Below are positions 35,808 to 51,813 of a stretch of 64,000 nt of DNA, one piece after another. The position numbers and the translations under genes were made by a program. The notes beneath the pieces were generated by a model, which worked only from the letters and a program-made list of their open reading frames with translations, was not told the origin of the DNA and made no database searches. The first letter of the stretch is position 1, and each line of letters begins with the position of its first letter. The DNA comes from Psychrobacter sp. FDAARGOS_221 (GTDB lineage: Bacteria > Pseudomonadota > Gammaproteobacteria > Pseudomonadales > Moraxellaceae). Location: contig NZ_NWFK02000001.1 in assembly GCF_002313155.2 (NCBI RefSeq), positions 1,922,001 to 1,986,000 of the forward strand. The letters are read 5' to 3'.

Positions 35808-37172
35808 ATGAACGATACGCTTACCACCATTATTCTTGCTGCCGGTAAAGGTACCCGCATGCAATCGTCTAAACCTAAGGTATTACAAACATTGGCGCAC
35901 AAGCCATTGTTGGCACACGTGCTCGATACCTGTCAAACTATTCAGGTGGACAAAACCATCGTGGTTTATGGTTTTGGTGGTGATCAAGTTCAAGCAGAAA
36001 TGACAGATTATAGTGTCAGTTGGGTTGAGCAAACAGAACAGCTTGGCACAGGTCATGCGGTAAAAGTCACTTTAGATGAGCTACCGCAAACCGGCAAAAG
36101 CCTTATCTTATACGGCGATGTGCCTTTAGTCAGTGCAGAGACTCTGACTCGACTTAAGCAGGCCAATGTCGATGGCATGTCGATGCTAACATTGACTGTG
36201 GATAATCCTTTTGGTCTTGGCCGTATTAAGCGTGATGACCAAGGCAATATCGTGGCTATTGTTGAGCAAAAAGATGCCAATGAACAAGAGCAAGCCATTC
36301 GTGAAATTAACAGCGGCATTTATTGTGTTGATAATGCATTGCTGCATAAATATCTGCCTAACCTGTCCAATGACAATGCGCAGCAGGAATACTATTTAAC
36401 CGATATCGTAAAAATGGCGGTTGCTGATGGTATCGCCATTACTGCCATTGAGCCTGAACATGAGTTTGAGATTGAAGGGGTTAATAACCGTCAACAGCTT
36501 GCGCAACTAGAACGTCGCTGGCAAGCCAAGCTGGTAGAAGATTTACAAGTTAAAGGCGTTCAGTTCGCTGATCCGACACGCGTTGATATTCGTGGGCAGG
36601 TCAATGTTGGCCAAGATGTTTATGTCGATATCAATGTGGTATTTGAAGGACAGGTGACACTGGGTGATAATGTCACTATTGAAGCCGGCTGTGTTATCAA
36701 AGACACTGAGATCGGTGATCACGTACATCTAAAACCTTATTGTGTTTGTGATCAAGCGCAAATCGGCGATCATGCCAGCATTGGACCTTTTGCGCATTTA
36801 CGCCCGCAGACGCAACTGGGTAAACACACCAAGCTGGGTAACTTCGTTGAGATTAAAAAATCAACAATCGGTGATGGTAGTAAAGTAAACCATTTAAGTT
36901 ATGTTGGCGATGCGCAAATTGGTGCAAACGTTAATTTTGGCGCCGGTGCTATTACCTGTAACTATGATGGGGTTAACAAACATCAAACTGTTATCGGTGA
37001 TCAAGCGTTTATTGGTACCAATACCTGTTTAGTAGCGCCTGTAACTATTGGGCGTACTGCTACTATTGGTGCGGGTTCAGTGATTACCAAGAATGTTGAA
37101 GACAATGCTTTGGCCATTGGTCGTGGTCGTCAGGTTCAAAAAGACAATTACCAACGTCCAGTTAAAAAGTAG
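35808..37172 (+). CDS. glmU: Bifunctional UDP-GlcNAc pyrophosphorylase / GlcN-1-P acetyltransferase
   Basis: Carries out the last two steps of UDP-N-acetylglucosamine synthesis, supplying peptidoglycan and lipopolysaccharide. The N-terminal uridylyltransferase has LAAGKGTRMQSSKPKVLQ (about 11-28), YGDVPLVSAETL and EINSGIYCVD. The C-terminal left-handed beta-helix shows hexapeptide repeats (about 250-430) with the acetyltransferase signature NFVEIKKSTIGDGSKVNHLSYVGD and NFGAGAITCNYDG. The 454 residues are standard. glmS follows 250 bases downstream with its own ribosome site. Confidence 0.97.
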   Translation: MNDTLTTIILAAGKGTRMQSSKPKVLQTLAHKPLLAHVLDTCQTIQVDKTIVVYGFGGDQVQAEMTDYSVSWVEQTEQLGTGHAVKVTLDELPQTGKSLILYGDVPLVSAETLTRLKQANVDGMSMLTLTVDNPFGLGRIKRDDQGNIVAIVEQKDANEQEQAIREINSGIYCVDNALLHKYLPNLSNDNAQQEYYLTDIVKMAVADGIAITAIEPEHEFEIEGVNNRQQLAQLERRWQAKLVEDLQVKGVQFADPTRVDIRGQVNVGQDVYVDINVVFEGQVTLGDNVTIEAGCVIKDTEIGDHVHLKPYCVCDQAQIGDHASIGPFAHLRPQTQLGKHTKLGNFVEIKKSTIGDGSKVNHLSYVGDAQIGANVNFGAGAITCNYDGVNKHQTVIGDQAFIGTNTCLVAPVTIGRTATIGAGSVITKNVEDNALAIGRGRQVQKDNYQRPVKK

Positions 37173-37423
37173 CTTGTTGATCAGCACTGGAAGTTAGTAT
37201 TGAAAACAAACAAACATTAGAAAACGATAAAGTTTTGCTTTGATAACAGGGTGTGGTTAACCATAAATAACCCATTAGCTGTGAATCTAACTATGTCACT
37301 CTAAACTACTTATGTCATTCTAAAACAGGCAAACGTTAACCAGTGGGATGACTAATAGCGTGATAAATAGCGCAATGAGAAAACAGTTACCCCTGTTATC
37401 AGTCATGAAAATAAGGATAAATT

Positions 37424-39271
37424 ATGTGTGGAATCGTCGGTGCAATCGCTGAGCGTAATATCTCAAATGTTTTGCTTGAGGGCTTAAAGCGTCTAGAATA
37501 CCGTGGCTATGACTCAGCTGGATTGACCGTTATCCGCGATGGTCAGCTACACCGTGAGCGTCAAGTGGGTAAGGTACAAGCCTTGGTTGATGCGGTTAAT
37601 GACGATGCCACAAGCTTTAAAGGCAAAATTGGTATTGCCCATACCCGCTGGGCAACGCATGGTGAGCCAGCTCAGCATAACGCACACCCACACATTTCAG
37701 GTAAAGTGGCGGTAGTACATAACGGTATTGTCGAAAACTATGGCCCTTTAAAACAAGAAATGATTGAAAAAGGCTATACCTTTACCTCACAGACAGATAC
37801 TGAAGTGGTTGCCCACTTAGTGGCTGATGCTTATGAGCAAACCCAAGATCTTCTAAAAGCCGTTGAAAAAGTAGTGCCACGTTTGCACGGTGCTTTTGCA
37901 TTGGGTGTGGTGCACGTTGATAATCCAGATGAATTAATCACCGTGCGTTTAGGCTCTCCATTGGTAATCGGTGTGGGTATTGGTGAGAATTTTATAGCCT
38001 CAGATCAATTGGCACTATTGCCAGTGACTAACCGTTTTATGTACCTAGAAGAGGGTGATATTGCGGTTATTAGACGTGATGGTATTCAGGTATTCGCAGA
38101 CGGTAAACCAGTACAACGTGCCATTACTGAGCTTGATGCTAAGCATCATAATGCCGACAAAGGTGAGTTTAAGCACTACATGCTTAAAGAAATCTACGAG
38201 CAGCCAGATGCCGTTGCACGTACTTTGGCAATGGGTATCGATGCCACTGATTTAAAAGCAGACTTTTTACAATCTCACGAAGCGCAGCTGGCAAAAGTTA
38301 AACACATTCAGGTGTTGGCTTGTGGTACCAGTTATCATGCGGGTATGGTAGCCAAGTATTGGTTCGAGAATCTAACGCGTCTGCCATGTTCAGTAGAAGT
38401 TGCCAGTGAGTTCCGCTATCGTAACCCAGTGGTCATCGATGACACCTTAGTGGTGTGCTTATCGCAGTCAGGCGAAACTGCTGATACGCTATCTGCACTG
38501 CGAGAAACTCAGCGCAGAGCCAAAGCAGGTGAAATTAATAACTTGGTGAGCTTAAGTATTTGTAACGTGGCGACCTCATCACTGGTTCGTGAAACTGATA
38601 TTTTTGTTCCGACATTGGCTGGCGTGGAGATTGGTGTGGCTTCAACTAAAGCCTTTACCACTCAATTGGCCGCTTTGATGTTATTAGTGTTGAAAGTGGG
38701 TAAGGTGCAACAGCGCATTGATGCCAATGAGCTTAAAACTATTGTTACCGAGATGCACAACCTAAAAGGTCAGCTGGATAAGAGCTTAACGCTGGATCAG
38801 TCGATTGAGAAGATGAGTGAGAAGTTCGAAGACAAGAAGAGTACTTTATTCTTAGGCCGCGGTGTGCAGTATCCTATCGCATTAGAGGGTGCATTAAAGC
38901 TTAAAGAAATCTCTTATATTCATGCTGAAGGCTATGCAGCCGGCGAGCTCAAGCATGGTCCATTGGCATTAGTTGATAAAGACATGCCGATTGTGGTGCT
39001 TGCGCCAAAAGACAGCATGCTTGATAAATTAAAAGCCAATATGCAAGAAGTGCATGCGCGCCACGGAGAGTTGTTTGTGTTTGCGAGTGATTCAAGCGAG
39101 CTTGTGAGCGATGACAGACTGCATGTGATTAATGTACCGGATGTTAATGAGCACTTAGCACCGATTGTTTATAGCATCCCAGTGCAGTTCCTGTCATATC
39201 ACGTGGCAGTCATGCGTGGTACCGATGTCGATCAGCCACGTAACCTTGCTAAGAGTGTGACAGTAGAGTAA
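37424..39271 (+). CDS. glmS: Glutamine-fructose-6-phosphate transaminase (isomerizing)
   Basis: Makes glucosamine-6-phosphate from fructose-6-phosphate and glutamine, the entry step of the hexosamine pathway. Catalytic Cys2 begins MCGIVGAIAERN; the glutaminase domain has RWATHGEPAQHNAHPH and HNGIVENY; two SIS domains carry ACGTSYHAG, SQSGETADT and the C-terminal PRNLAKSVTVE. The length of 615 is near E. coli (609). AAGGA precedes the ATG. The 250-base leader after glmU holds no recognisable glmS ribozyme. Confidence 0.98.
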   Translation: MCGIVGAIAERNISNVLLEGLKRLEYRGYDSAGLTVIRDGQLHRERQVGKVQALVDAVNDDATSFKGKIGIAHTRWATHGEPAQHNAHPHISGKVAVVHNGIVENYGPLKQEMIEKGYTFTSQTDTEVVAHLVADAYEQTQDLLKAVEKVVPRLHGAFALGVVHVDNPDELITVRLGSPLVIGVGIGENFIASDQLALLPVTNRFMYLEEGDIAVIRRDGIQVFADGKPVQRAITELDAKHHNADKGEFKHYMLKEIYEQPDAVARTLAMGIDATDLKADFLQSHEAQLAKVKHIQVLACGTSYHAGMVAKYWFENLTRLPCSVEVASEFRYRNPVVIDDTLVVCLSQSGETADTLSALRETQRRAKAGEINNLVSLSICNVATSSLVRETDIFVPTLAGVEIGVASTKAFTTQLAALMLLVLKVGKVQQRIDANELKTIVTEMHNLKGQLDKSLTLDQSIEKMSEKFEDKKSTLFLGRGVQYPIALEGALKLKEISYIHAEGYAAGELKHGPLALVDKDMPIVVLAPKDSMLDKLKANMQEVHARHGELFVFASDSSELVSDDRLHVINVPDVNEHLAPIVYSIPVQFLSYHVAVMRGTDVDQPRNLAKSVTVE

Positions 39272-39296
39272 TAGGCTGTTAAAAACGAGCTATCAG

Positions 39297-39330
39297 AAAG
39301 CCCCTGCTGAAATCCAGCAGGGGCTTTTTT
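39297..39330. terminator. Terminator downstream of glmS
   Basis: Stem AAAGCCCCTGCTG with CAGCAGGGGCTTT (loop AAATC) followed by T6, between converging glmS and the TauE/SafE gene. It can act in both directions. Confidence 0.93.
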
Positions 39331-39364
39331 AGTCTAACTGACGTTGCTCAAAGCAATCAATTCA

Positions 39365-40222
39365 CTAGATTAAATCTTTAAGCAAAAAGTAAAAGCCAAT
39401 GAGGGTTAATAATATCGCAAAGCATCTTTTTAATAGGGCTGGCGATAAGATATGAGCCACTTTTGCGCCGAGCTTGGCGGTAATGAAGCTCATGCTACTA
39501 ATACCTAAAAATGCGTAAATATGAACAAAGCCAATAGTGTTAGGAACATCCAACTGTTGCTGCATACCAAATATCATAAAGCCCAATGCGCCAAATATAG
39601 CAATCGGTAAACCGCAAGCAGCAGAGGTGCCGACCGCCTTTTGCATCACCACACCATAGTGAGTTAGGTAAGGCACGGTTAAGCTACCGCCGCCGATACC
39701 AAAAATAGCAGACGCAATACCAATCACCCCGCCAGCAGCCAATTGCTTTGGTGTTGATGGTAAGACAACAGCCGCTGGATCAGTGTCGTTTAACGCAGTA
39801 GTACTGGTACTGGTCGCTTGCGCATTGGCAACAGGTGCTGACTTTTTGCTTTTACGAAACATACGAAAAGCGACCCACAGCAAGAATATACCAACGATCA
39901 GCTGCAGATGCTCGCCAGATATTTTGCCGGCGACTCCAGCACCAAAGAAGCAACCAAGCGCCATGCCCGGTGCTAAGTGTTTAAACACAGGCCATATTAC
40001 CGAGCCTTTTTTATTGTGAGCCATTAACGAGCTAATAGAGGTCACAATAATGGTCGCCAATGACGTACCCAACGCCAAATGCATAATTGAATCAGCTGGA
40101 TAACCCATTTGGGTAAAGACGATAAACAGTAGGGGTACGATGATGGTTCCGCCGCCCACGCCAAAAAGACCAGCAGCAAATCCTGCTAGTGCACCGATTA
40201 TAAAAAATATGATTAGTTCCAC
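39365..40222 (-). CDS. TauE/SafE family membrane permease
   Basis: A 285-residue inner-membrane protein with about eight helices in two repeated halves. Each half starts with the family signature: FAAGLFGVGGGTIIVPLL (about 14-31) and IASAIFGIGGGSLTVPYL (about 173-190). Members export sulfite, sulfoacetate or other organosulfur compounds or import them; the substrate here is unknown. The hydrophilic central linker (about 125-155) is longer than usual. It lies 55 bases downstream of the flavin reductase gene and probably shares its transcript, which places a possible sulfur-compound carrier beside a methionine synthase. Confidence 0.88.
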   Translation of the reverse strand: MELIIFFIIGALAGFAAGLFGVGGGTIIVPLLFIVFTQMGYPADSIMHLALGTSLATIIVTSISSLMAHNKKGSVIWPVFKHLAPGMALGCFFGAGVAGKISGEHLQLIVGIFLLWVAFRMFRKSKKSAPVANAQATSTSTTALNDTDPAAVVLPSTPKQLAAGGVIGIASAIFGIGGGSLTVPYLTHYGVVMQKAVGTSAACGLPIAIFGALGFMIFGMQQQLDVPNTIGFVHIYAFLGISSMSFITAKLGAKVAHILSPALLKRCFAILLTLIGFYFLLKDLI

Positions 40223-40277
40223 GGGATAGTTGCTTCTCAGTTAATGGGGTTGTCAGTCTGGGCCAGTATAGTTGCTA

Positions 40278-40808
40278 TTAGCCCACGTGATGATACGCTC
40301 GATTAAAGTAAATCAAACTTTGTATGTCCACGTTTGATGGCTGTAACGACTCAAGCGGTTTTGGTTTTGGTGTGCTGGGCGCATTTTCTTGTTTGATAGC
40401 GACCACTCGGCACATAAATACACTATGGGTGCCTACCGTTTGAGTACTTTCTATTTCACAATCAAAGCTAACCAACGCCTCTTCTAATATGGGCGATCCG
40501 GTTTCAAGCTTAGTCCAGCTGCCATGTTCGAAGCGCTGCTCTGAGTCTAGCGGAGAGGCAAAAGCATTGGATATATGCTCTTGATGTGCGCCCAGTACAT
40601 TGACGCTCAATGTCTTATTCTCTACAAAGTTGGCATGCGAGCGCGTGGCCTGATTCATACACACCAGTAAAGTGGGCGGCGTGTCAGTCACACTGCACAC
40701 AGCAGATGCGGTAAACCCATAACGACCAGCGGCACCTTCGGTGGTTACCACATTGACGGCTGTGGCCAGCAAAGACATTCCGTTTCTAAAGTCGGTTGCT
40801 TCAATCAT
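40278..40808 (-). CDS. Flavin reductase domain protein (HpaC/RutF-like)
   Basis: A 176-residue FMN-binding protein of the flavin reductase-like family, which uses NAD(P)H to make reduced flavin for partner oxygenases. Signatures: FRNGMSLLATAVNVVTTEG, RYGFTASAVCSVTDTPPTLLVCMNQATRSHANF, FENKTLSVNVL-like ENKTLSVNVLGAHQEHISNAF and the end LIYFNRAYHHVG. There is a short Pro/Lys-rich insertion (about 145-155) before the last strands. No ordinary two-component monooxygenase is beside it; the neighbours are the core methionine synthase and DUF1852 genes, a partnership that seems plausible because that system needs oxygen (inference). Confidence 0.85.
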   Translation of the reverse strand: MIEATDFRNGMSLLATAVNVVTTEGAAGRYGFTASAVCSVTDTPPTLLVCMNQATRSHANFVENKTLSVNVLGAHQEHISNAFASPLDSEQRFEHGSWTKLETGSPILEEALVSFDCEIESTQTVGTHSVFMCRVVAIKQENAPSTPKPKPLESLQPSNVDIQSLIYFNRAYHHVG

Positions 40809-41111
40809 GACATATATCCTAAATTTTAAATCTCTAAGTACTGCTATAGTTTAACTCATTGCCACAGTTTATAAATGCAATAAGCCCTAACTTATTAATG
40901 ATAGGCTCTACCATAATAGGGTGTTAGGGCCTAATACTATAGTAGTTTGGTATGAGGTCAACTGTTATAGTCAGCAACGTCTAAATTGGATGCGGCATTG
41001 TGCCTGCTATTTTGCCAATGACAGCGCTTAATCCCTGACTGGCTGACTATAATTAGATTGGTTTAAAACAGCTCAAATTTAAGTATAAAACCATCCATAC
41101 CAATATTAGAG
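40809..41111. other. Gap with two nested inverted repeats between mesD and flavin reductase
   Basis: About 300 bases without a gene. Two inverted repeats are seen: TTATAGTCAGC (40965-40975) with GCTGACTATAA (41042-41052), an exact 11-bp match 66 bases apart; and GCCCTAAC (40884-40891) with GTTAGGGC (40923-40930), extendable to 11 bp with one mismatch. Neither has a T run typical of an intrinsic terminator. The region should hold a promoter for the flavin reductase gene. Confidence 0.6.
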
Positions 41112-42140
41112 TTAGGCGCTTAGCTCATCACGAATGATTTTGGATCCTGCGCTCAATGCTTGAAGCTTATTACGGGCAACCTCACGTGATAAAGGCGTCA
41201 TGCCACAGTTGGTTGATGGATACAGCTTATCAGCATCAACAAATTGCAATGCTTTGCGCAGTACATCGGCCACTTGTTCAGGAGTTTCGATGGTATTGGT
41301 TGCCACATCAATAGCACCAACCATCACTTTTTTGCCGCGAATCAGTTCGATTAAATCCATTGGCACACGTGAGTTAATGCATTCAAGTGAGACAATATCA
41401 ATTTGTGACTGTTGTAGCTTTGGGAACACCTCTTCGTATTGACGCCACTCTGAGCCCAACGTCTTTTTCCAATCGGTATTGGCTTTGATACCATAACCAT
41501 AGCAAATATGTACCGCAGTTTCACAGGTCAATCCTTCGATGGCACGTTCTAAAGCCGCAATACCCCAGTCATTGACTTCGTCAAAGAACACATTAAACGC
41601 CGGTTCGTCAAACTGAATAATATCAACACCTGCGGCTTGTAGGTCTTTGGCCTCTTGATTTAATATTTTGGCAAATTCCCAAGCCAGTTTTTCACGGCTC
41701 TTATAATGGCCATCATAGAGGGTATCGACCATGGTCATCGGGCCGGGTAGTGCCCACTTGATAGGCTGATCGGTTTGCGAGCGCAAAAAGGTAGCATCAT
41801 CAACGAATACTGGCTTTTGACGACTAACAGCGCCAACAACAGACGGGACACTGGCTTCGTAACGATCACGAATCTTAACGGTCTCACGCTTTTCAAAGTC
41901 GACGCCTTCTAAGTGTTCAATAAAGGTGGTCACAAAGTGCTGGCGGGTCTGTTCGCCATCGCTAACAATATCAATGCCAGCGTTAATTTGTTCTTGCAGC
42001 GACACACGTAGCGCATCTTGCTTGGCTTCAGTTAATTGCTCACCTTCAAGCTTCCAAGGTGACCAAAGTTTTTCTGGCTCTGCCAACCAACTCGGTTTCG
42101 GTAAGCTGCCTGCAGTCGATGTGGGTAATAATAAGCTCAT
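41112..42140 (-). CDS. mesD: Core (folate-independent) methionine synthase, MesD-like
   Basis: A 342-residue protein equal to the catalytic C-terminal half of MetE, without the N-terminal folate-binding duplicate. It shows TAGSLPKPSWL, IVSDGEQTRQHFVTTFIEHLEGVDF, the conserved IIQFDEPAFNVF, HICYGYG (zinc ligands His and Cys, about 209-211) and PSTNCGMTPLSREVA with the last Cys ligand. Together with the adjacent DUF1852 gene this matches the MesD family described from aerobic bacteria, where homocysteine is methylated without 5-methyl-tetrahydrofolate or cobalamin and with a need for oxygen and DUF1852 (established for Acinetobacter and relatives). The gene symbol rests on that context. Confidence 0.85.
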   Translation of the reverse strand: MSLLLPTSTAGSLPKPSWLAEPEKLWSPWKLEGEQLTEAKQDALRVSLQEQINAGIDIVSDGEQTRQHFVTTFIEHLEGVDFEKRETVKIRDRYEASVPSVVGAVSRQKPVFVDDATFLRSQTDQPIKWALPGPMTMVDTLYDGHYKSREKLAWEFAKILNQEAKDLQAAGVDIIQFDEPAFNVFFDEVNDWGIAALERAIEGLTCETAVHICYGYGIKANTDWKKTLGSEWRQYEEVFPKLQQSQIDIVSLECINSRVPMDLIELIRGKKVMVGAIDVATNTIETPEQVADVLRKALQFVDADKLYPSTNCGMTPLSREVARNKLQALSAGSKIIRDELSA

Positions 42141-42228
42141 GCTGATGCTCTTCTCTTATTGTTATGTGAATAATTAATGCTATGAATAATTTTCCTGTTT
42201 AGACGACTTTTTCTTAGGCGGCTCTTTT

Positions 42229-43263
42229 TTAAGCGACTTTCTTATTGGTCGTTTCAGTTTTATTGCCTTTATCAGTAGTCACAGTGACGGGCTCAATGGT
42301 CGCTGCCCAGTCGTTTAGGGTTTGCTGATATGGCTCAATAAAGGTCTGTTGCGTAAATTTACCTTGTTTCACTGCCAATTGACTGCGCTCTTCACGGTCA
42401 TACACCACTTGAGTCAGCGAGTAATCTTGGTATTTCAAGCTTGGCTGATAGACTTCAGCAGCAGCTGAGTTGGCATTATAGATTTCAGGGCGATAAATCT
42501 TCTGGAAGGTCTCCATGGTACTGATGGCACTGATTAGCTCCAAGTCACTGTAGTCAGCCAATAGGTCGCCGGCGAAATAAAACGCCAACGGGGCAACACT
42601 GCCTTCAGGCATAAAGTAACGCACGGTTAAGCCCATTTTGTGGAAGTAATCATCAGTTAGTGAGTACTCATCCTGCTTGTACTCAACACCTAATATTGGA
42701 TGGCGGTTGGCAGTACGGTAATAGGTCTTACTGGTTGACACACTCAAGCAAATCACCGGTTGCTTATTGAAATTAGCTTTATAAGCGTCAGAGTTTAATA
42801 AGTGCTGAAACAGCTTGCCATGCAACACACCGAAGCTTGCTGGCGGCGGCGTATTTGGATTTTTTTCAAAATGCTCCAATAGCACCACACTAAAGTCATA
42901 GTCACGGACATAAGATGAAAAGCTATTGCCGATGATACCGTCAAGACGCTCATTGGTTTTGTGGTCGACAATGGTGGTTTGTAGCATCTCAATGGCGGGG
43001 AAGGGGTCACCGTTGCCTTCAACATCTAAGTTGGCAGAAATAATGTCCACTTCGACCGAATAGCGGTCTGCCTTTGGGTTGTCCCAGTGCGCCAACGCAT
43101 TAAAGCGGTTATTAATCATGGTTAACGCTCTGCGTAAGTTATCCTCACGGCTTTCACCACGGGCTAAATTGGCAAAGTTAGTGGTCAGACGTGTGCTGTC
43201 TGCTGGCTTATAATTTTCATCAAAACGAATCTTTGAAATAGAATAATTAAATGGCTTGCTCAT
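42229..43263 (-). CDS. mesX: DUF1852 protein, MesX-like partner of MesD
   Basis: A 344-residue soluble protein starting MSKPFNYSISKIRFDENYKPADSTRLTTNFANLARG, the typical DUF1852 opening, with later blocks NRFNALAHWDNPKADRYSVEVDI and TVRYFMPEGSVAPLAFYFAGDLL. Members of this family are required for MesD-dependent methionine synthesis; the chemistry they perform, possibly generating or delivering the methyl group, is not known to me. It precedes mesD by 88 bases, likely the same transcript. GAGGG precedes the ATG. A MetR-type palindrome lies about 175 bases upstream. Confidence 0.85.
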   Translation of the reverse strand: MSKPFNYSISKIRFDENYKPADSTRLTTNFANLARGESREDNLRRALTMINNRFNALAHWDNPKADRYSVEVDIISANLDVEGNGDPFPAIEMLQTTIVDHKTNERLDGIIGNSFSSYVRDYDFSVVLLEHFEKNPNTPPPASFGVLHGKLFQHLLNSDAYKANFNKQPVICLSVSTSKTYYRTANRHPILGVEYKQDEYSLTDDYFHKMGLTVRYFMPEGSVAPLAFYFAGDLLADYSDLELISAISTMETFQKIYRPEIYNANSAAAEVYQPSLKYQDYSLTQVVYDREERSQLAVKQGKFTQQTFIEPYQQTLNDWAATIEPVTVTTDKGNKTETTNKKVA

Positions 43264-43796
43264 GATAACCCTCTGCTTTAATAGTAAAAATCTGCTGTTC
43301 GATTTAATGTAAGTTTGAATTTAATAAATGGTCTGATTGAGTAGCGTGTTTGGTTTAACAGTCAGTGCACTGTTGGTATGCAGCAAATCATACCCAAAGC
43401 ACGACATGAATAAAAACGATATAAACTTGAAAAAAGATGAATTTAATTCATGTAAAGGGTCGTGTAGAATATTAAGCAGTGTTTAAATGCTAATCAAAGA
43501 CAAGGCGGCAGGGCGGTTATTGAATAATGAATTAAATCAAATAATTAATGGCAATAGCATGAAGGGCAACACTTTGAGAGAAAGGCTAAATTGCTAAAAA
43601 TCGGCTATAGCAGAGGATAAAAGAGCGGAATACGGTAGGCAAAATAGTTAACAACAGATACGGTTATAACCACACCATTTTTACTGTAAATCTAATGCAA
43701 ATGAGATGGGCTCATCTTGATATTAAAAAAAATCAGCATATATAAAGGTTATATATGCTGATAAGTAGAATTTTAAAACGATAGCTAACTGTTTGA
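43264..43796. other. Regulatory gap upstream of the mesX-mesD unit
   Basis: About 530 bases with no gene in it. It holds the leftward promoter of mesX, including the palindrome at 43437-43451, and, at its right side, the end of the META-domain gene. The right half (43500-43780) has only AT-rich sequence, with no terminator that I can support. Confidence 0.5.
43437..43451. promoter_or_regulatory. MetR-like operator (TGAA-N5-TTCA)
   Basis: ATGAATTTAATTCAT is a perfect 15-base palindrome containing TGAA-N5-TTCA (43438-43450), the consensus bound by the LysR-type regulator MetR, which uses homocysteine as co-inducer. It lies about 175 bases upstream of the DUF1852 start and no other gene begins leftward here, so control of methionine synthesis genes is the natural reading. 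Confidence 0.65.
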
Positions 43797-44303
43797 TTAT
43801 TGCGCTTTTGGTACCGCTTGGAAGTGAGACACTTGATTGTCATTGGTAATTACTAACATAGGCACTTTATTGGTGCTTTGGCTTAGAGTGTATTTACCAA
43901 CTACTGCTTTCATGGCGGCTGCGTCAAACTGAGCTTCTGGATCAGGACACGCCATCATGGTGCTCATCACATTGCCTAATGTTACGCTGTCATTTTCGAT
44001 GCGATAGTTGGCAGACATGTTATTACAGGTATTCATAAAGCTAACCATATTATTGCCATCGGCTTGCATAAAGTTAAGGGTCAATGGCTTGGCAGGATCG
44101 ATAAATAGGGCATTTACTTTTTCGCCACTGTTCATCTTGGCATCTACTAATTGCCAGTTATAAGCTTGAAGGACGGTGTTATCCATTGGATAAGTGGTAA
44201 TTTTTGGGTGTGATACTGAGGTAGTTGTGGTGGTTTGACAACCTGCTGCAAGTGCCGCTACAGTAAGGGTTGCGGTTAACATTAATGGATTAAGAATTTT
44301 CAT
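43797..44303 (-). CDS. META-domain lipoprotein (HslJ-like)
   Basis: A 168-residue predicted lipoprotein: signal MKILNPLMLTATLTVAALAAGC with lipobox LAAGC (Cys22) and Gln at +2, favouring the outer membrane. After a Thr-rich linker, about residues 48-160 form a META domain: YNWQLVDAK, LTLNFMQADGNNMVSFMNTCNNMSANYRIENDSVTLG and the MMACPD motif. HslJ relatives are linked to heat shock and novobiocin resistance, but the molecular function is unknown. It stands alone. Confidence 0.82.
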   Translation of the reverse strand: MKILNPLMLTATLTVAALAAGCQTTTTTSVSHPKITTYPMDNTVLQAYNWQLVDAKMNSGEKVNALFIDPAKPLTLNFMQADGNNMVSFMNTCNNMSANYRIENDSVTLGNVMSTMMACPDPEAQFDAAAMKAVVGKYTLSQSTNKVPMLVITNDNQVSHFQAVPKAQ

Positions 44304-44766
44304 GACATCTCCTAATAAGGTAAAAAGGGAATTAAAAATATATTTTATAATATAGTATTATATCAGCCCGTATCGCTAAAATCGTACCAACTTTCTGATA
44401 ATAGAAAGCTGAATGTGGGTACCAATAGCCTAATACCGGCATAGAAAGCTTAATATGGGATTATTTTTGTTGCTCAGTAGCGTATAATAGCGCCATATGT
44501 CTTTTAGTATATGACGATGGTCGAATAAGTCTATGGCCTAATTGACGTTAAAATATTGTCCAAATGTAAAAATTTAGGTTTAAAATACCGTCCATTTAAA
44601 AAACAGTCCCTTTAAAACCGGCCATTTTGAAATACGAACACGCTAAAATATCAACCAAATTTATAGTCTAAGTTTGTCAATGTTATGTTTGTCGGCGTTA
44701 TAGCGATGACAAATATTTGTTTACTTTATTTTTTCATTCATCCCTTCAATTGAAATAGGAAATACT
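44304..44766. other. Gap upstream of aldolase gene, with degenerate repeats
   Basis: About 460 AT-rich bases between divergent genes. A perfect TATAAT at 44483-44488 may be the -10 of the aldolase promoter, but no good -35 is seen. From about 44545 to 44630 the sequence is a degenerate array of AAAATACCGTCCATTT-like units of about 18-20 bases. Confidence 0.45.
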
Positions 44767-45657
44767 ATGAGCTATCAACAGCAGTTACAACGCATCAAAA
44801 ATGACATCGGCTTTATCGCAGCTTTAGACCAAAGTGGCGGCAGTACACCAAAAGCATTGCGCATGTATGGTGTAGAGGAAAGCGAGTATTCAAACGATGA
44901 CGAAATGTTTGCCAAAGTTCATGAAATGCGCACGCGTATCATGACTTGCGACACATTTGATAGTGGCCGTGTACTAGGCGCTATTTTGTTTGAGGATACT
45001 ATGGACCGTGAAGTGAACGGTAAGCCAACCGCTAACTATCTTTGGGAAGATAAAAACATCGTTCCATTCTTAAAAGTTGATAAAGGCTTAGCTGATCAGG
45101 TAGATGGCGTTCAGATGATGAAGCCTATGCCAGGTTTAGCGGCACTACTTGAGAAAGCGAAAAACTATCCAATCTTTGGTACTAAAATGCGCTCAGTCAT
45201 TCATGAAGCGAGCCAAAGCGGTATCGAAGCTGTCGTACAACAGCAGTTCGATGTGGCTAAGCAGATTTTGTCAGAAGGCTTTATGCCAATCGTTGAGCCT
45301 GAAGTAAACATCGAAAGCAAAGACAAGCTTGAGTGCGAAGTACTACTAAAAGAAGAGCTTCTACGTAACTTGGACAGCTTAGATGACGATCATCAAGTGA
45401 TGTTAAAGCTAACATTGCCTGAAGAACAAGGCTTCTACAAAGAAGTAATCGAGCATCCACGTGTGCTTAAAGTAGTTGCTCTATCAGGCGGTTACAGCCG
45501 TGAAGAGTCATGTGAGCGTCTAAAACAGAACCCAGGTATTATTGCTAGCTTCTCGCGCGCATTCACTGAAGGTCTGTCTAAGAGCCAAACTGATGAAGAG
45601 TTCTCAGCGACCATCGATGCGTCAATTGATAAAATCTACACAGCCTCTAAAGTATAA
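44767..45657 (+). CDS. fda: Class I fructose-bisphosphate aldolase
   Basis: Cleaves fructose-1,6-bisphosphate to the triose phosphates by a Schiff-base mechanism, without metal. The 296 residues resemble the Staphylococcus type: KNDIGFIAALDQSGGSTPKALRMYG, DEMFAKVHEMRTRIMT, GAILFEDTMDREV, PFLKVDKGL, GTKMRSVI, PIVEPEVNI, VMLKLTLPEE (Schiff-base Lys, about residue 214) and VALSGGYSREESCERL. GAAATAGGAAA precedes the ATG. Monocistronic with a terminator. Confidence 0.95.
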   Translation: MSYQQQLQRIKNDIGFIAALDQSGGSTPKALRMYGVEESEYSNDDEMFAKVHEMRTRIMTCDTFDSGRVLGAILFEDTMDREVNGKPTANYLWEDKNIVPFLKVDKGLADQVDGVQMMKPMPGLAALLEKAKNYPIFGTKMRSVIHEASQSGIEAVVQQQFDVAKQILSEGFMPIVEPEVNIESKDKLECEVLLKEELLRNLDSLDDDHQVMLKLTLPEEQGFYKEVIEHPRVLKVVALSGGYSREESCERLKQNPGIIASFSRAFTEGLSKSQTDEEFSATIDASIDKIYTASKV

Positions 45658-45708
45658 GCCAGTTATCTAGTTAGGTTTATATTAGCCTAACTAAATATCA
45701 GGTCTAAC

Positions 45709-45746
45709 AAAAAAGCTTGAACCCCTAGGGATTCAAGCTTTTTTTA
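45709..45746. terminator. Terminator between aldolase and autotransporter genes
   Basis: Stem AAAAAGCTTGAA with TTCAAGCTTTTT around a short CCCCTAGGGA loop region, followed by T7. A second inverted repeat, AGTTAGG/CCTAACT, lies just before it (45669-45692). It separates converging genes. Confidence 0.88.
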
Positions 45747-45770
45747 TTGGTTACAATTAGGCTGGGCTAA

Positions 45771-48700
45771 TTAAAACTTAGTTTCAAACACAATAGCCGC
45801 ACCTTGGTCGTCATAGTTATCACGCCACTCACCACGGTAATTGGCCGAAATAGTGGTATTAGTGGTCGGCTTAAATGCCAAACCAATACCTGCAATACCA
45901 ATGGCTTCTTTGCTCTTTTGACCTTGAGTCATAAACTTATTAGAGCCCACTTCAACGAAGCTTGCCGTAATGTCTGAGTAGCGATCGCCATTTTCAATCG
46001 CACCAGCCAGCTGACCAGTCACAGAGAAGGTCGGCGTTAACGCTTGATCAAAGCGAACACCAGCGGTCCAACGTACTGAGTCATAAGTGTTAGAATCAAC
46101 CGCTAGGTTATATGCCCCGGCACCTGTCTCACGATAGCTGTCACTCTTAGCACGTGCATAGTTAACGCTCGCAAAAGGAGAGACATTGCGGTCAGCGCTG
46201 CCAATTCTATGCGCCACACCCAAGCCTGCTTGCAAGGTATCGACATCATAATCAGACTTAGCAACGGCTGAGGTAATGCTTGAGATATGACGCTCACCTT
46301 TGACATTAGACTGACCAGCACCGGCATGGAAGTTAACTGAAGTGGCATCACTTGCCGCATAGTTACCATAACCTAATACCTGCCAGTTTTTCGCTTTCAG
46401 TTCATGCTTTAGGGCATGACCGTCGGTATCAGCGTCACTTTCGATGTAAGAGACAGCTAGGCCAAGGTTCAAATCAGGGTTTACTGACGTATCCAAACCA
46501 ACGATGGCACCGTAGTTTTCTGAATTATAACCAGTGACATAACCATCAGCATCGTGAGTCATATCACTACCAATAGCTTTGGCCCATAAGTTATGCTCAG
46601 GGGTAGTTTGGCTATGCTCTTCAATCGCACGACTGGTCGCATAGTTGGTATCTGTGATTAAGCGGTTAGCACCACCCATAAATAGCGGTTGTAGCTGTGC
46701 AGTAGCAGCAGCGACCTGTGCTTGGTCTAAACCATCCATATCTGAGATAAGCTGCTTCGCCAGTGGGTTCGCTGATGTTGTTGTATCTAACTGATCATCA
46801 ATAGCCTGGTCTAAAACAGTTGCTAAGCCAAAAGCAGAATAATTATTTATAGAACTTACAGCATCATACACAATCGTGTAATCGCTACCTGGTTCTGGCG
46901 TTGGCTTAGGAGTTGGTTCTGGCGTTGGCTTAGGAGTTGGTTCTGGCGTTGGCTTAGGAGTTGGTTCTGGCGTTGGCTTAGGAGTTGGTTCTGGCGTTGG
47001 CTTAGGAGTTGGTTCTGGCGTAGGCACAGGAGTTGGCTCTGGCGTAGGCTCAGGGGTTGGCTCTGGCATAGGCTCAGGGGTTGGTTCTGGCATAGGCTCA
47101 GGGGTTGGCTCTGGCGTAGGCTCAGGGGTTGGCTCTGGCGTAGGCTCAGGGGTTGGCTCTGGCATAGGCTCAGGGGTTGGTTCTGGCATAGGCTCAGGGG
47201 TTGGCTCTGGCATAGGCTCAGGGGTTGGTTCTGGCGTAGGCTCAGGGGTTGGCTCTGGCATAGGCTCAGGGGTTGGTTCTGGCGTAGGCTCAGGGATTGG
47301 TTCTGGTGTCGGCTCAGGAGTTGGTTCTGGCGTAGGCACAGGAGTTGGCTCAGGTGTAGGCTCCGGAGTCGGCGCTACCATACGTAAATGAACTGCATTA
47401 GCATCGCTATAATCCGCTTCAAAATCTACCAGTAGATTATTATCCGTTACTGATGCAAACTCACCGTTTAGTTTGGTTGCTGAAACAACATTTTTATATT
47501 CAGAATTTGTGGTGACTTCCTCTAAATAGCTGTACGCAAAGACTTTAAGGTTACCTTTAGTAATATCAAGATTGCCATTTACTTGTATTTGACCATATTC
47601 ATTACTATCTACATGGCCGTCTTCATTAACATCGAGTAGACCAATAACTAAGCTTTCACCTTCTGGTACAGAGTAGTTACCATTTAGCTTTAAAACGCCT
47701 CCTATTGAACCCCAGTCTCCTACCCATTGTTTGTTATCAGTAGTTAGTTCTAGGCTTCCTACACCAGTCTTGATAAACCCACCAATATCATAGTCATCTG
47801 TAAGATTAAGATCGAAGCTACCAGCATTGCCGGTAATAACTGCCTTGGGGTCTACTACAACTGAGATGGGCTTCGCAGCAGCATCACTGTATCGCGGTAT
47901 CTCAGTGGCGATAAAAGCGCCTTTAGTACCAATATTAATTATATTTTTATTAGTGAAGTTATCGAATAGAAACTCTTTATCAGACTGTATATCTATTCCA
48001 CCACCGTTGATATAGATTTCAGATTTAATTGAGTCAGGGTTACGTCCAAGATATTTTGTTTCTAACTCGCCAACGTCATTTACATGTAATACGCCCGAGC
48101 CTGTATTTCCAACTATCATCTTGGGAGTAACAAAAGTGCTATCTGATAATGTGAACTCACCTTTTGCCTCAGCACTATCAAGACCATACCCACCAATATA
48201 GGTAGCATAACGAGCTTGAGTCAAACCGCCATGGTAGGGCGTATTCTCAACAACTATATTGCCTTCACCCTGTTTGCCAACTATCAAGTTATCAGTTTCA
48301 ATATATCTATGACCAGAGACGGTTATATTACCGACGCCTGATTTTTTGTTACCCAGTATCGTATCGTTTATAACGTATAGCCCATGATACGGACGCTGCT
48401 GATCAGGGTCTTCAATTTGAATCATTGAGAGACTACCATTGCTAGTATCTCCAATGATGACATTGTTTTGGGCACTAACACCACTGGTAGTATCGTCAAG
48501 AAGAATAACCTGACTATTATTATCAATAATCAAATCATTTGATGACATTAAACTCTCACCGTCACCTAGCTTAATAACTTCGCCTTGATTGATTACTAAA
48601 TCATCAGGCGTTGTCGCCGCAACTGCCATAGTTGAAGCGACAACACTGAGCATAGCAATAGATAGAGTTGTTAAGTGTAAATGAGGCTTCTTAGTAGAGG

Positions 48701-48803
48701 TCGCTGACTTGCCTGAAGACTTGCCACGAGATTTAGCAATCTCGGACACACATTGATAAACGCCTAAAGCGCGATTGAAAACAACACGGTATACATGGTT
48801 CAT
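45771..48803 (-). CDS. Autotransporter with ESPR signal and long Pro-Glu-Pro-Thr repeat
   Basis: Type Va secreted outer-membrane protein of 1010 residues. The N terminus [28 protein letters not shown] is an extended signal peptide region (ESPR), followed by a hydrophobic core ending near AVA (62). The passenger (about 63-475) has beta-helix-like repeats with INIG and [10 protein letters not shown] patterns. Residues about 478-640 are about forty xPEP-type tetrapeptides ([12 protein letters not shown]). The C-terminal barrel (about 734-1010) begins [12 protein letters not shown] and ends in FETKF, the Phe-terminal barrel signal. The function may be adhesion; no protease triad was seen. The repeats could expand or contract in frame. 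Confidence 0.9.
46890..47365 (-). repeat. In-frame tandem repeat array of the autotransporter
   Basis: About 475 bases made of 12- and 24-base units coding for four- and eight-residue steps. On the plus strand five consecutive near-identical 24-base units (GGCGTTGGCTTAGGAGTT core) at 46902-47020 give TPKPTPEP, and the rest uses variant units with GGCATAGGCTCAGGGG (TPEPMPEP). All units are multiples of three, so copy-number change alters length and not frame. Confidence 0.92.
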
Positions 48804-49239: not shown

Positions 49240-51533
<2,294 letters not shown>

Positions 51534-51645
51534 TTTCCTACGGCGGTATTAACCGCATCAGGTTCAACGGGTGATGTCTCAGCAAACGCTTTGTTAAATA
51601 ATAGCAGTGACACTACTGGCTAACAGATGGTCTGCACCCCGAGTC
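51534..51645 (-). ncRNA. TPP riboswitch (THI element)
   Basis: On the minus strand the conserved parts are clear: ACTCGGGGTGC at the 5' side, CTGAGA, then ACCCGTTGAACCTGATGCGG and AATACCGCCGTAGGAAA at the 3' side. They form the two helical arms that bind the pyrimidine and the diphosphate of TPP. An extended P3 arm of about 45 bases separates GGGTGC from CTGAGA. It senses thiamine diphosphate and represses thiC. Confidence 0.93.
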
Positions 51646-51813
51646 TTAGTAATTTTTATTTTAAAAGCTTTGGTGGTTATGCTTTTAATAATATCGATAT
51701 CTTATCAAACTTTGAGTTTAATAACAGTCTTGCTTTGCATTTAAATGTTTAATGCGCTGTTTTTATCTTGTTCATGTCATTTTTAATTTTGCATATAGCC
51801 AGCTTTAACGCAT

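Follow-up and report, generated by a model that had tools for sequence, protein, structure and literature searches.

The locus described here lies in a stretch of 64,000 nucleotides (nt; the window) of contig NZ_NWFK02000001.1 of Psychrobacter sp. FDAARGOS_221, whose genome of 3.16 Mb consists of one contig and contains a single copy of mesX. The locus codes for the methionine synthase system MesX/MesD and for a flavin reductase that, judging by the comparative data given below, is very probably its working partner and not a chance neighbor. The order of the genes on the minus strand is mesX, mesD, flavin reductase, and TauE/SafE permease, as follows.

42229-43263, minus strand: mesX (DUF1852; PF08908, "Putative oxygenase MesX"), an open reading frame (ORF) of 344 amino acids with a Pfam match.
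41112-42140, minus strand: mesD, core methionine synthase without the N-terminal folate domain of MetE, an ORF of 342 amino acids.
40278-40808, minus strand: flavin reductase, RutF-like (PF01613), 176 amino acids, the proposed supplier of reduced flavin mononucleotide (FMN).
39365-40222, minus strand: TauE/SafE-family permease (PF01925), 285 amino acids, an optional accessory gene.
43438-43450, no strand: MetR-like palindrome TGAATTTAATTCA, upstream of mesX.

The initial annotation had described mesX and mesD as neighbors on the minus strand with the reductase and the permease downstream, and both the ORFs and the Pfam matches agree with this; the range flagged at the time, 40278-43263, omits the permease and the MetR-like site. 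The first two genes are separated by 88 nt. MesX matches PF08908 over its full length (profile positions 1 to 323 of 323; 577 bits, cut-off 25), and the permease matches PF01925 (179 bits, cut-off 32.6). The reductase scores 132.5 bits against PF01613 (Pfam cut-off 27) and 194.9 bits against the RutF model TIGR03615, under the equivalog cut-off of 254.75, and by these scores it is RutF-like, not RutF.

MesD comprises the catalytic Meth_synt_2 domain (PF01717, 132 bits, cut-off 21) and lacks the N-terminal domain of MetE (PF08267, 20.1 bits, under the cut-off of 27). It passes the NCBIfam model NF006589 (694.8 bits, cut-off 392) and has a solved relative, 3rpd (650 bits). Residues H211, C213, E253, and C312 are found at the zinc-ligand motifs, E253 and C312 also through alignment with MetE, whose ligand positions we take to be those in 1t7l. 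The zinc ligands of Escherichia coli MetE are His, Cys, Glu, and Cys (PMC7857596). MesD performs the same end reaction on homocysteine as MetE and MetH and is related to the MetE catalytic domain; unlike these enzymes, it has no folate domain and does not use B12 (PMC7857596). The window genome codes for MetH (PF02965), and PF08267, the N-terminal domain of MetE, had no match in it, so that MesXD would be its B12-free route beside MetH. Elsewhere, a divergent MesD subgroup paired with mesX (loci L116, L120, L135, L142, and L146; G and L numbers designate our genomes and loci) shows 56 to 58% identity to whichever of two MesD seeds is closer, other loci having 79 to 91%; it falls under the 72% identity level used in print, and the one member tested, that of L120, scores 580 bits against NF006589 and still passes.

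MesD makes methionine from homocysteine and needs MesX and oxygen, not MetF or B12 (Price et al. 2021, PMC7857596). According to that report, expression of Sphingomonas koreensis genes in E. coli showed that MesX and oxygen are required for MesD activity, and mesD plus mesX rescued metE and metF mutants in air only. The statement in the initial annotation that the MesD family dispenses with 5-methyl-tetrahydrofolate and cobalamin and depends on DUF1852 and oxygen agrees with that account. The same text notes that a putative flavin reductase frequently lies close to the mesD-mesX pair and predicts that MesX uses flavin; the idea of a flavin partner is thus already in print. ACIAD3523/3524 and the reductase ACIAD3522 of Acinetobacter baylyi, as well as MesD and MesX of S. 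koreensis, belong to the same families as the window proteins. Unlike that system, the window has a TauE permease following the reductase and a longer gap between mesD and the reductase. The words TauE, permease, and MsuE are absent from the main text of PMC7857596, and no paper in the searched literature brought TauE, a methionine synthase, and a flavin reductase together. Among the papers listed, no later work on MesX chemistry was found in a literature search whose reach excluded most subscription journals and bioRxiv.

The initial annotation had suggested looking for co-occurrence of reductase genes with mesD-mesX across genomes. This co-occurrence was near-total in the window's family, taken as Moraxellaceae, and rare but above chance outside it. 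Among 119 genomes of the family, mesX was present in 77, and a search with the window reductase returned a homologue in 80. A reductase was located on the same strand downstream of mesX in all 77 mesX-positive genomes, and in 76 it was of the window's type. The distance between the two genes, 1.12 to 1.49 kb in 76 genomes and 2.75 kb in one, fits the presence of mesD in between, as judged from spacing; the named loci show mesD there directly. The homologue was absent from 39 of the 42 mesX-negative genomes, and of the three others, two are incomplete assemblies (homologues of 89% and 63%) and one has a 53% protein that we consider a paralogue. Fisher's exact test for mesX and the reductase gave 3e-28, a value to be taken as a description and not as a probability, as the genomes are related. 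MetE followed the opposite pattern, with 5/77 mesX-positive and 26/42 mesX-negative genomes (three of 34 rows, G706, G779, and G810, weak or short, are omitted). At least 13 mesX-positive genomes have neither MetH nor MetE, the bound reflecting coverage of 20 of the 24 MetH-negative genomes; the reductase is present in all 13, and MesXD is probably their sole methionine synthase. In A. baylyi, the species of the genetic study of mesX and mesD (PMC7857596), locus L048 has the same order of mesX, mesD, and reductase as the window, with identities of 69%, 87%, and 63%, the MesD value exceeding the similarity threshold of about 72% identity to A. baylyi MesD given in that paper. In Moraxellaceae, the reductase belongs to the mesXD cassette.

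In genome G733, the reductase at this position is HsaB-like, 25% identical to the window protein and 84% identical to a seed of the type found at L117 and L154. At two Moraxellaceae loci (L058 and L177), a mesX of other phylogenetic origin still sits beside a Moraxellaceae-type reductase, in a weakly resolved reductase tree with two of 30 inner branches well supported; as a lead only, the resident reductase may have been kept while mesX was exchanged. A genome of the window's genus, G718, has two mesX copies, on contig 5 (L173) and contig 1. One copy has a stop-free reductase match downstream, and the other has a reductase reading with several stops, beside a stop-free TauE match.

Three kinds of reductase accompany mesXD in a wider set. 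A sample of the phylum contained mesX in 44 of 398 genomes, and a sample of another class (three of 337 mesX-positive, two of them already known) added one, giving 45. A reductase on the same strand was adjacent in at least seven of the 45, against 0.24 expected by chance. It was of family PF01613 in G000 and G074, both of the window's genus, and in G316, and of family PF03358 in G082, G094, G302, and G393. After removal of the window's genus, at least five of 43 remained, against 0.23 expected, three of the five being from one genus. The PF03358 count is a lower bound of four whose MsuE part was rechecked by tblastn; for G539 the PF01613 count was entered as 0 in the chance calculation, and tblastn of its locus, L170, found no reductase. 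The adjacency counts exclude a PF03358 gene of G375 (3.1 kb away, other strand) and the reductase of L118 (at a distance of 4 kb). In a sample of a further order, mesX was present in six of 200 genomes, three of them already counted, and MsuE was upstream of mesX in all six. None of the 13 named Enterobacterales loci has an adjacent reductase.

By class, 145 loci comprised 68 with no reductase, 61 RutF-like, 11 MsuE, three HsaB-like, and two contig ends, in a set that contains overlaps (L115 and L134 cover one stretch) and is enriched for Psychrobacter and Acinetobacter. RutF-like PF01613 proteins are found in the window, Acinetobacter, and Wohlfahrtiimonas, with a 45% relative in Rhizobium. 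HsaB-like PF01613 proteins follow mesXD at L117 and L154 (HsaB is their best NCBIfam model, under cut-off) and at L171, the L117/L154 type being that of Burkholderia arboris and G316. The PF03358 proteins are MsuE, over the TIGR03566 cut-off in all five tested (L079, L116, L120, L135, and L136); their genes lie upstream of mesX in loci of Acidovorax, Comamonas, Janthinobacterium, and Burkholderia paludis. At L135, the MsuE gene separates mesX from mesD. The reductase labels need 14 changes on a tree of 97 MesX rows (minimum 3, shuffled mean 36.8). The approximately unbiased (AU) test rejected a single clade of reductase-linked MesX (P = 3.4e-6) as well as a single clade of the 30 RutF-linked Moraxellaceae rows (P = 4e-4), with P values that are somewhat optimistic because the groups were set after the labels and the tree had been seen.

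By these sequence comparisons, three reductase kinds from two unrelated protein families have been recruited beside mesXD repeatedly, which supports a need for reduced flavin. The joining of two families of the same activity to mesXD is stronger evidence for flavin than the adjacency of one gene. Pairs of a flavin monooxygenase and a reductase form the two-component systems HpaB/HpaC, RutA/RutF, MsuD/MsuE, and HsaA/HsaB, and the known partners of the RutF, HsaB, and MsuE types are flavin-dependent monooxygenases. As in those systems, the gene for the presumed oxygenase MesX has beside it one for a separate NAD(P)H:FMN reductase (PF01613 or PF03358); unlike their oxygenases, MesX matches no solved protein significantly in sequence or in fold.

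The reductase might instead be a passenger that joined the ancestor of the Moraxellaceae cassette once, has since been inherited or lost by linkage, and serves general flavin chemistry. This would account for the lack of a reductase at most other sampled mesXD loci and for the report that E. coli needs only mesD and mesX (PMC7857596), and PF01613 and PF03358 are common families, each present in 13 of 14 control genomes. However, a single joining does not predict three reductase kinds of two families linked to mesXD in different lineages, nor adjacency in at least seven of 45 genomes against 0.24 expected; the different reductase kind in the G733 slot, the distribution of reductase-linked MesX over more than one clade, and, with a weakly resolved reductase tree, the foreign mesX at L058 and L177 beside a Moraxellaceae-type reductase also argue against it. 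We consider the passenger explanation unlikely.

We favor, at a probability of roughly 70%, the reading that the locus codes for an aerobic, folate- and cobalamin-independent MesX/MesD methionine synthase with a dedicated flavin reductase. The reductase would make FMNH2 from NAD(P)H, and FMNH2 would reach MesX by diffusion. MesX would then use FMNH2 and O2 to oxidize a metabolite and so render a methyl group transferable, which MesD would pass to zinc-bound homocysteine.

Several observations weigh against a dedicated partner. The 77/77 linkage does not represent 77 independent events, and 38 of the 43 sampled mesX-positive genomes outside the family have no adjacent PF01613 or PF03358 reductase. 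PF01613 is absent genome-wide from G228 and G342, PF03358 being present somewhere in 45/45. The sufficiency of mesD and mesX in E. coli (PMC7857596) fits only if host reductases serve. The lack of adjacency in 38/43 genomes and the E. coli result together indicate that a host with other reductases has no strict need of a dedicated one. The gap between mesD and the reductase is 303 nt in the window, compared with about 26 to 226 nt (median 134) in 56 related loci, and the caution expressed in the initial annotation about a gap of about 300 bases was fair. Weak promoter-like sites occur in the gap, part of a region that has fewer of them than its shuffled versions do, and co-transcription of the reductase with mesD is accordingly unproved. 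In Acinetobacter baumannii AB5075, B12 lowers mesX by 8.3 log2; for the reductase ABUW_3196, the decrease is 2.5 log2 (PMC12892962). These responses fit co-regulation of the two genes, and the much weaker response of the reductase suggests partly separate control. Lastly, comparison of the MesX model with solved structures (Foldseek, VIA) matched no flavoprotein or oxygenase fold, with rows at noise level only, so that flavin use by MesX is without structural support. The interpretation given in the initial annotation is thus supported in part: linkage in 77/77 genomes with near-complete joint absence and the recruitment of three reductase kinds speak for the partnership more strongly than the sequence of the window could, but the idea is not new and a dedicated reductase is not needed everywhere.

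The MesX model itself, made with AlphaFold2, is confident (predicted local distance difference test score of 88.5, predicted template modeling score of 0.87). The best match of the protein is from Psychrobacter lutiphocae (91% identity), and it is 56 to 87% identical to 62 other MesX proteins, in alignment with which H148, H188, E194, D121, and C172 are invariant. MHC-like proteins, protein tyrosine phosphatase, SMC heads, and GNAT were discarded as fold relatives, their Foldseek/VIA rows being at noise level. A profile search of PDB sequences gave one row, 2grk (E value of 0.051), which was not taken as a relative. We do not read the absence of matches to the model as proof of a new fold.

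The invariant residues could be metal ligands, and reduced flavins reduce iron. Together with the lack of a detectable flavoprotein fold, this leaves room for a MesX that is a non-flavin, possibly iron-dependent oxygenase, for which the reductase would reduce something else under air, for instance iron for MesX or damaged MesX or MesD. Yet no known metal-site motif was recognized in the MesX sequence, and the RutF, HsaB, and MsuE types, with the partner roles noted above, point to flavin as the substrate. We regard this explanation as improbable, slightly more so than that of a passenger.

The permease gene shows an association of its own. At least 11 of the 45 genomes, against 0.29 expected, have a TauE gene no more than about 3 kb from mesXD, in three arrangements. 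It is downstream and co-directional in the window's genus, upstream and divergent in five f16-family genomes, and downstream and convergent in families f9 and f31. In a tree of 40 TauE proteins, drawn from 211 matches in the 45 genomes and thus sampling the paralogues in part, those adjacent to mesXD fall into at least three separate groups, which indicates that TauE was recruited repeatedly. Among the 77 mesX-positive Moraxellaceae genomes, TauE is on the same strand within 5 kb of mesX in 32, and a close homologue (E value of 1e-60 or lower) is missing from 23, including 11 of the at least 13 genomes without MetH and MetE. These counts mark the permease as accessory and dispensable.

One could imagine that a small organosulfur compound provides MesX with the methyl group and that a sulfur by-product such as sulfite exits through the permease. 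The recurrence of TauE beside mesXD in at least three clades and three arrangements would suit such a route, as would the MsuE type of the Burkholderiales reductases, the name MsuE standing for methanesulfonate use. It is difficult to reconcile with the absence of a close TauE homologue from 23/77 genomes, among them most of those without MetH and MetE, and with the activity of MesXD in E. coli growing on minimal medium with glucose, to which no organosulfur donor was added (PMC7857596); we find an organosulfur donor very unlikely. The permease, which according to the initial annotation may move a sulfur substrate or product, is thus recurrently associated with mesXD, but its gene is dispensable.

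A bolder form of the dedicated-reductase reading, which we offer only tentatively, is that MesX may be the first of a novel type of enzyme dependent on FMNH2 and O2, of a fold unmatched among solved structures, that oxidizes a central metabolite into a methyl donor, with the reductase supplying FMNH2 and TauE disposing of the oxidized by-product. The source of the methyl group of MesD has been a question at least since Price et al. 2021, and since two FMN reductase families were recurrently recruited, reduced flavin is the first thing to test. If true, the proposal would provide a third, oxidative methyl source for methionine besides reduced folate and corrinoid proteins, and hence a new entry point into one-carbon metabolism. 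It would also explain how many aerobes manage without B12 and MetE.

Upstream of mesX, the palindrome at 43438-43450 resembles the MetR consensus, which we take to be TGAA-N5-TTCA. Three such patterns occur in the whole window, with 1.5 expected, and are thus not rare. Among 137 loci (31 from Psychrobacter) with upstream sequence of 200 nt or more, the pattern was present within 400 nt upstream of mesX in 48 (0.025 expected per locus), that is, in 25/31 Psychrobacter loci and 23/106 others. Leyn et al. 2014 (PMC4239095) placed the PF08908-metE2 operon in the MetR regulon; that operon and the window share a mesX-mesD pair with a MetR-type site upstream, and Psychrobacter does not appear in the main text of their paper. 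No Rfam family came near its gathering score in positions 37000-46000, and the whole-window scan gave no riboswitch there; B12 control at this locus, if present, would not act through an Rfam-detectable riboswitch.

At 12 loci, L071, L075, L079, L081, L116, L117, L120, L136, L146, L153, L154, and L167, a LysR regulator gene lies upstream of mesX on the opposite strand. Across distant genera, the LysR proteins show 73 to 83% identity to the one at L120 or L121, and this regulator is probably the methionine regulator of the set.

mesX matched 209 plasmid records in many genera, which argues that the cassette is mobile; at the plasmid loci L114, L115, L119, and L120, transposase or integrase genes are found within a few kb. 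Locus L050 is an Acinetobacter mesX with no adjacent mesD; its neighbor on the opposite strand is similar to the luciferase-like monooxygenase of L118. At L046, this strain also carries mesX, mesD, and the reductase.

Two further features of the window are an autotransporter gene (45771-48803, minus strand), whose product has an ESPR signal, a long proline-rich stalk of PTPEP repeats, and a beta-barrel domain (PF03797, PF13018), and a thiamine pyrophosphate (TPP) riboswitch (51518-51651, minus strand, 64.8 bits) upstream of thiC (49240-51240).

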